A stretch of 64,000 nt of DNA from Prochlorococcus sp. MIT 0701 (lineage in GTDB: Bacteria > Cyanobacteriota > Cyanobacteriia > PCC-6307 > Cyanobiaceae): assembly GCF_000760295.1 (NCBI RefSeq), contig NZ_JNBA01000039.1, positions 186,001 through 250,000 of the forward strand. Direction: 5' to 3'. The position numbers were made by a program, and so were the translations under genes. Below are positions 8,013 to 9,850 of this stretch, one piece after another. Position 1 is the first letter of the stretch. Every line of letters starts with the position of its first letter. The notes beneath the pieces are model-generated. The model was not told the DNA's origin, did no database searches, and worked only from the letters and a program-made list of their open reading frames with translations.

Positions 8013-8186
8013 ATGCACTGTTCAACAGATCCCCAGAAGAGAATTTTGATTGAAGTCCTGCAGGCGGAATACCGCAGAGCGAAGCAGCGCATAGAAGGCA
8101 GGCAATGGCGGGATCGATTAAGACAGGTCATAACAGCATCCAATGGTTTGCTAACACGTCAATATCGTCAACGAGGAGAAGGGTGA
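8013..8186 (+). CDS. Small basic protein coupled to the next gene
   Basis: A 57-residue [20 protein letters not shown] onward, continuing with an Arg/Gln-rich helical segment ([20 protein letters not shown]). Its TGA stop overlaps the GTG start of the next ORF in the GTGA arrangement typical of translational coupling, which is the main reason to believe both. No family was recognised. It runs divergently from rlmH with a very short or overlapping 5' region. Confidence 0.5.
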
Positions 8187-8404
8187 GAAAGCTCTGGGTG
8201 CAGTGGCAGGAGCTCTATGCGAGGGAGTGGTCACAATGGTTGGCCTGGCCTTTATTTGCACTTGGGATCTGGGGGATGCTCGCCGGAGGCAGCACTGGCT
8301 GGTTTTTGCCTAGTTTTTTATTGTGGTGGGTCGCTTGTGATCACATCGTGCCTCCCTGGAGGAGATGGCGAAAGAAGCAACTGGCAAAGAAGGAAAGGAA
8401 GTAG
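8183..8404 (+). CDS. Small Trp-rich membrane protein
   Basis: From GTG 8183, preceded by a GAGGAGAAGG ribosome binding site, the product is 73 residues. It starts [16 protein letters not shown], has one or two membrane segments (WLAWPLFALGIWGMLAGG and FLPSFLLWWVACDHIV), and ends in a very basic tail (PPWRRWRKKQLAKKERK). The frame extends upstream to 8105, but the ribosome binding site and stop-start overlap with the preceding ORF favour 8183. Function unknown; topology suggests a cytoplasmic basic tail. Confidence 0.6.
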   Translation: MRKLWVQWQELYAREWSQWLAWPLFALGIWGMLAGGSTGWFLPSFLLWWVACDHIVPPWRRWRKKQLAKKERK

Positions 8405-8569
8405 ACAGCCACATCAATCACTCTCCGTTCGCCAGCGATCTATTCCCTGGAGTTAGAAATCTATGAGCAAGCTCACACTTGCGTTTGAGCCAGATCACCT
8501 CCTGAGCGAGTGATCAGCGAGAAGCTAACTGCATCGAAGGCAAACAACCTTCTCCACCAGAGTAAATCA

Positions 8570-8755
8570 ATGACCATTGAACGCCACGATCAAGAACTAA
8601 GCCTTGATCAACTTGGAGCCATCTCTGCTGGTATCCGTGTTGGCTTTATCGTTGGACCTGTTAGCACTCAAGGCAACGCTAGAAGGCCAATTTGGGTTAG
8701 GCCAACTAGATTGGATGTCGGGCCTATTAGCACTCCACGCCGCAATTTTATTTAA
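8570..8755 (+). CDS. Candidate secreted peptide with a double-glycine-type leader
   Basis: A 61-residue ORF from ATG 8570 (open frame from 8510). Residues 8-21 read QELSLDQLGAISAG. Counting back from the predicted cut after Gly21, Leu-12, Ser-11, Leu-7 and Ile-4 fit the bacteriocin leader consensus LSxxELxxIxGG, with Ala in place of the first Gly. The predicted 40-residue product has no Cys, about seven Arg, five Pro and one acidic residue. It contains two near-repeats, VGPVST and VGPIST, around an RRPIWVRPTR core. Such leaders are normally removed by a C39-protease ABC exporter; none lies in this window. A strong hairpin follows. The product's role is inference. Confidence 0.5.
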   Translation: MTIERHDQELSLDQLGAISAGIRVGFIVGPVSTQGNARRPIWVRPTRLDVGPISTPRRNFI

Positions 8756-8794
8756 ATGAGACAACACTACGCGGGGGATTGAAAAGACTAAGAG

Positions 8795-8825
8795 AACAAC
8801 TGCAGCGAGTTACGCTGCAGTTGTT
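8795..8825 (+). terminator. Perfect 13-bp hairpin after the leader peptide gene
   Basis: Bases 8795-8807 and 8813-8825 are perfect inverted repeats with a 5-base AGTTA loop; the 3' arm runs into TTGTTTGGGCTTT. The T-run is interrupted, but stem length and position 40 bases after the peptide stop suggest a transcription terminator or RNA-stabilising hairpin. Confidence 0.6.
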
Positions 8826-9217
8826 TGGGCTTTGTAGTAGCAGTTAAAGATGAATCGAATGATCAACTAATCTTGAACAGTTGAATGCCTGAGAACAATG
8901 CTTCGACCTTTTCCTGGCACTTAAAGCTTCTACTTAAGAAGAAAGCAAAGCTAAGAGCCGAGCGGCGATAGAGATCAAGCTCAAAGATATTGTTCTCGAC
9001 AACAGATTAATTGTAGAGGTTAGTAAGCTTGGGACAAACATTCGATAGGGTTGATATTCATGACAGCAATAGCAACCTTTTATCTTACATTTCTATAAAA
9101 GGTGATAGTAATAGGCCTAAGTGATAGCGTGAATTGCTAGGCTATAATCCCTAGGCTTCACCTTTTACAGGTCGAGGTACAGGCGCTCTAATCTATTGAC
9201 AAGTTAAAATCGACCTT
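8826..9217. other. AT-rich gap without a confident gene
   Basis: A protein-like but start-less stretch at about 8960-9048 (RAAIEIKLKDIVLDNRLIVE in one frame, just after a stop) could be a gene remnant. A TATAAT-like hexamer occurs at about 9142-9147, near a small CCTAG repeat, upstream of the next gene. Nothing else was seen. Confidence 0.3.
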
Positions 9218-9850
9218 ATGACAGCTAACGGCAACAAACAAGAGGACTACCTAGACGAACACTTCAGTCTTAGTCAACAACAATTGATCTCATATAAGGT
9301 TTTCTGGGTTGATAGTTGGCTAAATCACTGTTGGGAAGATGTGCAGGGAAGGATAAGTAGACTTGACCTTCCTTCTGTTGGCAGAGCCTATAAATCACCC
9401 CCTCCAGCACAACTATTGCTTTTGTCGAACGGCCAGAAAATAGAATTTTTCGACCGAAATAAAGACTACCTCTTGAGGTCTATTCTTGAGGATAGCAAAG
9501 GAGATATAGGCGCTAGTGGTTTCAATAAGCAGTGGCTTTCTGAAAACTCTAATAATAAGGAATTGGAAGAGATTGCAAAGCAATGGGATGCTTTTCTAGA
9601 AGAAGAGTGTGATCACGTGATTGAAGCTCAGAAAAGTGAGAGCATCAGACTAATCACATCCTCATTGCCTGTAACAGTAAGAAATTTAGAGTTTGCCAAG
9701 CAAGAAAAAGAACAACACTGGGATTGGGAAATAAGCAACGGATTCATCATGCTGACTTGTAGCGAAGATGACTTCAATAACACGCTTAAGCCTTATTTGG
9801 AGAGTGGTCAGGCAGACTACCTGGATTCTAATTCAGGTCCTTTATCTTAG
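9218..9850 (+). CDS. Unknown acidic 210-residue protein
   Basis: Soluble protein starting MTANGNKQEDYLDEHFSLSQ. It is rich in Glu, Asp, Asn, Ser and Trp, with no signal peptide and no membrane segment. The N-terminal third contains YKVFWVDSWLNHCWEDV; the middle is helical and charged. No domain was recognised. Codon use is AT-rich compared with the core genes, and it is flanked by gene-poor sequence on both sides, consistent with an accessory gene of recent arrival. It could be part of a strain-specific family. Confidence 0.5.
   Translation: MTANGNKQEDYLDEHFSLSQQQLISYKVFWVDSWLNHCWEDVQGRISRLDLPSVGRAYKSPPPAQLLLLSNGQKIEFFDRNKDYLLRSILEDSKGDIGASGFNKQWLSENSNNKELEEIAKQWDAFLEEECDHVIEAQKSESIRLITSSLPVTVRNLEFAKQEKEQHWDWEISNGFIMLTCSEDDFNNTLKPYLESGQADYLDSNSGPLS

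Follow-up and report, generated by a model that had tools for sequence, protein, structure and literature searches.

A CCRG-2-like precursor gene in Prochlorococcus sp. MIT 0701, with a leader/core mosaic and a putatively exported Cys-free peptide

The open reading frame (ORF) at positions 8570-8755 of the window (the whole 64-kb stretch of DNA analysed here) probably encodes the precursor of a secreted, cationic, Cys-free peptide of the CCRG-2 type, which would be exported by a C39-domain transporter, take part in the swapping of cores among related genes, and serve as an extracellular interaction factor. The existence of a genuine small gene here, coding for an exported peptide, is very probable, and the reading that its leader is cleaved for export has good support; for the released product, an extracellular interaction factor within a variable cocktail is favoured, killing being one possibility. 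The gene falls within the large and previously known group of double-glycine-leader peptides; its striking feature is that sister species retain the leader at the same genomic location with a different payload behind it.

The precursor gene, its locus and its 5'-UTR hairpin

The features of the locus are summarized in Table 1. The ORF runs from an ATG to a TAA codon and translates into MTIERHDQELSLDQLGAISAG followed by IRVGFIVGPVSTQGNARRPIWVRPTRLDVGPISTPRRNFI. Numbered from the predicted cleavage site, the leader contains L-12, S-11, L-7, I-4 and G-1, and every position on which the preliminary description had based its leader assignment is thus present in the translation; the -2 residue is Ala, which makes an 'AG' site and no literal Gly-Gly. 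The core contains seven Arg, one Asp and five Pro, and no Lys, Glu or Cys, with a net charge of about +6, in agreement with the 40-residue Cys-free product described earlier. The duplicated VGP(V/I)ST units reported there were also recovered, and a pair of 20-mers within the core that match as well as these do (16/20 bases) turned up in 0.2% of codon shuffles.

Table 1. Features at the precursor locus (window coordinates)
Feature	Position	Strand	Remark
Precursor ORF, 61 aa + stop	8570..8755	+	single leader-pattern match within the window
Double-glycine-type leader MTIERHDQELSLDQLGAISAG	8570..8632	+	predicted cut after AG; leader DNA 93-97% identical, over the stretch aligned, to its syntenic counterparts in G002 and G003
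Core of 40 residues IRVGFIVGPVSTQGNARRPIWVRPTRLDVGPISTPRRNFI	8633..8752	+	similar to P0002 core (z 8.4) and G003 CCRG-2 core (z 5.8)
Two imperfect VGP(V/I)ST copies	~8649-8669 and ~8715-8735 (span 8649..8735)	+	16/20 bases identical
In-frame extension from GTG 8510, +20 residues	8510..8569	+	judged 5' UTR
5'-UTR hairpin GAAGG-caaacaa-CCTTC	8536..8552	+	17 nt upstream of ATG 8570; related hairpins before other double-glycine genes
Strong hairpin, 14-bp stem, candidate 3' end	8793..8826	+	-24.5 kcal/mol, z -4.8
Block with no DNA identity detected to the syntenic region in G002 or G003	8634..9185		begins at the leader/core junction

A strict leader pattern matched once in the six frames of the window, at this ORF, and never in 3.84 Mb of Markov-generated random sequence (60 sequences, each 64 kb long), so that a chance ORF is unlikely. 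The longer start at GTG 8510 was rejected because the stretch that it would add contains a hairpin that the paralogues carry in the 5' UTR; ATG 8570 is therefore the better start. The strong downstream hairpin begins about 40 nt past the stop codon and has no classical T run.

The genome to which the window belongs comprises 2.59 Mb in 53 contigs, and the genus was sampled with five genomes, this one included. The gene is found at the same place beside rlmH, a SPOUT methyltransferase gene, in two of the four other genomes (G002 and G003), while no double-glycine gene was visible beside rlmH in G001 and G004. The DNA upstream of the gene is 89-90% identical between the window and G002 or G003. 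The reading frame is open in all three genomes, and the leader residues L, L, I and G are kept. In G002 the first ATG has become ATA, with a second ATG two codons downstream, and Thr precedes the cleavage Gly. A small conserved ORF, apparently for a membrane protein, lies between rlmH and the peptide gene (8105-8404); it is kept in G003 and frameshifted in the G002 assembly. Neither this neighbour nor the ORF at 9218-9850 matched a Pfam family above the cut-off.

Other double-glycine genes carry comparable hairpins 15-33 nt upstream, with stems GGAGG/CCTCC, GAGGG/CCCTC, GGGGG/CCCCC and others. Under one fixed definition, chosen after seeing examples, a hairpin was present in 8 of 21 CCRG-2 and other-group genes versus 3 of 165 control genes, and in 2/10 genes with a TDYNN-type leader, 0/18 with an ELSTDEL-type leader and 0/12 with a Nif11 leader; these counts are non-independent owing to paralogy, and single hairpins are not significant alone. 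No known RNA family was matched above threshold. The pattern suggests a shared cis-acting RNA element and makes the hairpin a candidate cis-regulatory RNA, and it supports ATG 8570 as the start. Compensating changes in the stem were seen across window 8536-8552, L099 (6157), L100 (2961), L106 (2138), L109, L111, L081, L058 and L138; at the last of these loci, in G004, the gene behind the hairpin encodes a small protein whose signal sequence is of the Sec type. On the minus strand of L099, a locus adjoining the G003 CCRG-2 cluster, a GAGGG-GAGA-CCCTC hairpin stands 16 nt before a gene that starts at about 11191 and encodes a 410-aa protein with long AAAEQ repeats; possibly this is the element again, here in front of a gene of a different kind.

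Leader/core mosaic and relation to the CCRG-2 family

In both comparisons, with G002 and with G003, the left-hand alignment stops at 8634 and restarts at 9185-9189. The cores of the two syntenic orthologues are alike (IIL..Y.G.D.D..VDRC..GRPSWHK...HPR.NIQGKVH) and differ from the core in the window, which has no significant similarity to them at the DNA level. The window core is most similar to that of an own-genome paralogue, P0002, on contig C8 (core RVGIDVGPVARRPKWVRPLR), and is also similar to the core of a G003 gene at 1008 kb (NARR..FDIGPVTTRG); two paralogues (own genome and G003) likewise carry a charge of +6 and 4-8 Pro. The upstream DNA of the window gene matches that of the 1008-kb gene as well (67%, E 2e-6), and the leaders of the two genes resemble each other. 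Within G003, the core of the syntenic orthologue contains an 83-bp stretch that is 80-82% identical to the cores of three CCRG-2-type genes at other loci, and its leader DNA is 72% identical over 61 bp to that of the 1008-kb gene. These alignments are most simply explained by leaders that remain at their loci and cores that are exchanged among dispersed members; the precursors resemble mosaics in which a stable leader is combined with an exchanged core. The two core types are weakly related, A/G-R-P-x-W being common to both, and for this reason fast divergence of one core is kept as an alternative for part of the mosaic picture.

Two further observations concern the arrangement of such genes. 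The double-glycine peptide cluster that contains P0002 is located about 3.4 kb from a tyrosine-recombinase-like gene (L106 1243-2311 and 5735-7006, G000:C8), which could help to spread clusters of this kind. Two CCRG-2 copies in G003 (G003:C1:1005729 and 1010558; L088 and L091) lie about 4.8 kb apart and are identical over the 400 bp compared, as in a recent tandem duplication.

CCRG-2 genes reportedly respond to co-culture with Alteromonas, and their products are said to be released into the medium. The name stands for co-culture responsive genes of Prochlorococcus (Aharonovich and Sher 2016, as quoted in PMC8120280), and the family comprises secreted small peptides of Prochlorococcus and Synechococcus with a 13-residue motif that ends in Gly-Gly (PMC8120280). 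With the NCBIfam model of the CCRG-2 family RiPPs (NF033456, cut-off 24 bits) the window protein scored 13.5 bits, the G003 orthologue 19.1 and the full-length paralogue at ~1008 kb of G003:C1 38.9. Homology outside the motif is indicated by the similarity of the core to two G003 genes that score above the cut-off (p 0.001-0.002), together with the upstream DNA match to one of these two. As the leader falls below the cut-off that defines the family, the gene is filed as CCRG-2-like and not as a member, and is regarded on this evidence as a divergent relative of the picocyanobacterial CCRG-2 genes.

The own genome yielded 28 matches to the CCRG-2 model at E up to 10, from weak to strong, four of them above the cut-off. 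From profile matches and the contig stretches read, about 25 plausible double-glycine precursors were counted, belonging to several leader groups, and a few of them are Nif11-led prochlorosins. A single-sequence scan of the genome contig collection gave no match, and a profile scan of the same collection matched only Prochlorococcus sp. AG-412-I05 (the G002 record). Viral contigs and phage records gave no match, and thus no indication of a phage origin. A four-sequence profile run against 300 genomes of the family gave strong matches confined to the own genus; those outside it were few and weak (E 8e-5 or worse), and many of them lay mainly in the leader. The preliminary description had proposed a search for homologues with a conserved leader and a varying core, and such homologues were found in G002, in G003 and among the paralogues.

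Export, modification and alternative roles

Cyanobacterial double-glycine precursors and C39 exporters have been catalogued, including those of MIT9303 and MIT9313 (Wang et al., PMC3140520). A C39 exporter elsewhere in the genome, also proposed for checking in the preliminary description, was located: three C39-domain ABC transporter genes are present, none adjacent to the precursor. With both homologues and exporters present, neither of the two corresponding grounds for refutation named there applies. The Glu-Cys-Gly signature, as read in the sequence, is kept in two of the three proteins (on contigs C36 and C2). The C36 exporter scored 1036.9 bits with NHLM_micro_ABC1, a model of the NHLP bacteriocin-export family (cut-off 853.3), and its neighbours encode HlyD, a second ABC protein and a protein with a cyclic-nucleotide-binding domain. 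The C39 protein on C20 lacks the signature Cys and adjoins a very large repetitive protein. The cyclic-nucleotide-binding-domain protein (L112 4775-5803, G000:C36) ends in NEQLGLDQLSAISSAGLRFDWLCRQFQDKEG, which is strikingly like ELSLDQLGAISAGIR of the window leader.

In the proposed mechanism, a C39-domain ABC exporter encoded elsewhere would recognise the leader, cut it after Ala-Gly and release the 40-residue core outside the cell; the NHLP/NHLM-type exporter on C36 is the most likely candidate. The approximately 25 dispersed precursors appear to share the leader logic and, in part, the 5'-UTR hairpin; with their cores exchanged by recombination, each strain would release a different peptide cocktail. 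The released core would most likely be a signal or an allelopathic peptide directed towards neighbouring bacteria. Counted against this explanation are the leader score of 13.5 bits, the Ala (Thr in G002) before the cleavage Gly, the moderate dN/dS and the non-adjacent exporter.

It is rather unlikely that the product is an unmodified bacteriocin of the class II type that kills relatives, its Arg/Pro core acting on membranes or, in the manner of proline-rich antimicrobial peptides (PrAMPs), on ribosomes. The cationic Cys-free core, the double-glycine leader, the C39 exporters of the genome and the equally charged, Pro-containing cores of the two paralogues (own genome and G003) would fit such a role. 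At the same locus, however, the orthologues contain Cys and carry net charges of +3 and -1; the Arg/Pro character of the window core is lost in the sister species, and the bacteriocin signal model TIGR01847 gave no match at E up to 10. A classical bacteriocin core usually comes with its own immunity gene. At this locus none appears to follow the core, since the flanking genes are common to the window and to G002 and G003, which carry another core. Local alignment of the core with ten insect and mammalian PrAMPs gave p values of 0.16-0.94 against shuffles of the core, and a PDB search was empty. The likeness to PrAMPs put forward in the preliminary description was therefore not borne out, and homology to them was rejected, the scores being no better than composition gives and the sister orthologues losing the Arg/Pro character.

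That the product is a structural or matrix-type secreted protein for aggregation or biofilm, neither killing nor signalling, is unlikely. The idea draws on EbfG1-4 of Synechococcus elongatus, double-glycine proteins which mutants have shown to be required for biofilm and which depend on a C39 exporter and a motif of the same type, Gly-Ala or Gly-Gly (PMC4997328). According to that paper, the mature EbfG proteins have no homologues in other cyanobacteria (PMC4997328); no sequence link to them is known beyond the motif, and a single conserved structural role fits poorly with cores that vary and are exchanged.

It is very unlikely that the ORF arose by chance or is decaying, with a relic leader and a core no longer under selection. 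The dN/dS of leader and core, 0.41-0.75, is moderately below 1 (a weak test on 20-45 codons) and agrees with decay, as do the loss of the first ATG in G002 and the AG in place of GG. The frame is nevertheless open in 3/3 genomes with its leader residues L, L, I and G, the core is significantly similar to the cores of intact paralogues, and a strong hairpin follows the gene.

Still less probable is a precursor that serves as substrate of a modifying enzyme, by lanthipeptide-type dehydration of Ser/Thr or by formation of a Trp-Val-Arg cyclophane. The genome contains one LanM gene, P0002 weakly matches TIGR04495, the model of triceptide precursors (16.8 bits against a cut-off of 33), and WVR occurs in both the P0002 core and the window core. 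Lanthionine rings, however, require Cys, which the window core lacks; most of the TIGR04495 match falls within the leader; and no SPASM-domain radical SAM protein (PF13186) was found in the genome, the control genomes being positive. Triceptide or other modification by SPASM radical SAM enzymes was rejected on the last ground, and an unmodified product is taken as the default because the core has no Cys and the SPASM proteins are missing.

It is extremely improbable that the core, with the ARRPxWVRPxR centre conserved in paralogues, is a peptide of bacterial make, protected by its leader, that enters competitors and inhibits an intracellular target, e.g., the ribosome, with the mosaic swapping such payloads between strains.

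Significance and comparison with known systems

The locus shows a possible diversification of a peptide repertoire in which the leader stays, the payload is replaced and the break point falls at the processing site. Its natural leader/core combinations offer a direct test of exporter specificity and of whether leader or payload decides function. Streamlined marine cyanobacteria contain surprisingly many genes for secreted peptides.

The window gene shares with the CCRG-2 genes a short precursor, a leader of the E-L-T/S-x-D/E-Q-L-x-x-I/V-x-G/A-G type, a variable core and the occurrence in Prochlorococcus, but departs from them in its leader score below the cut-off, its Ala-Gly end and its Arg/Pro-rich core. 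With EbfG1-4 and PteB of S. elongatus it has in common a double-glycine-type motif, in which the Gly-Ala variant is tolerated, and a C39 exporter; the mutant-based link to biofilm formation sets the EbfG proteins apart. The PrAMPs apidaecin, oncocin and drosocin are cationic, rich in Pro and Arg and free of Cys, like the window core, which differs in its smaller number of Pro, the absence of PRP repeats, alignment scores that do not exceed those of shuffles, and its bacterial origin. The prochlorosins, encoded in the same genome, resemble the window gene in their conserved leader, double-glycine site, hypervariable core and dispersed genes. The preliminary description had kept the peptide apart from these Nif11-led precursors, and rightly so: the window protein has no Nif11 match in Pfam or NCBIfam, and the genome also encodes prochlorosins and one LanM. 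Unlike the prochlorosins, the window gene combines a short non-Nif11 leader with a Cys-free core in which lanthionine rings are not possible.
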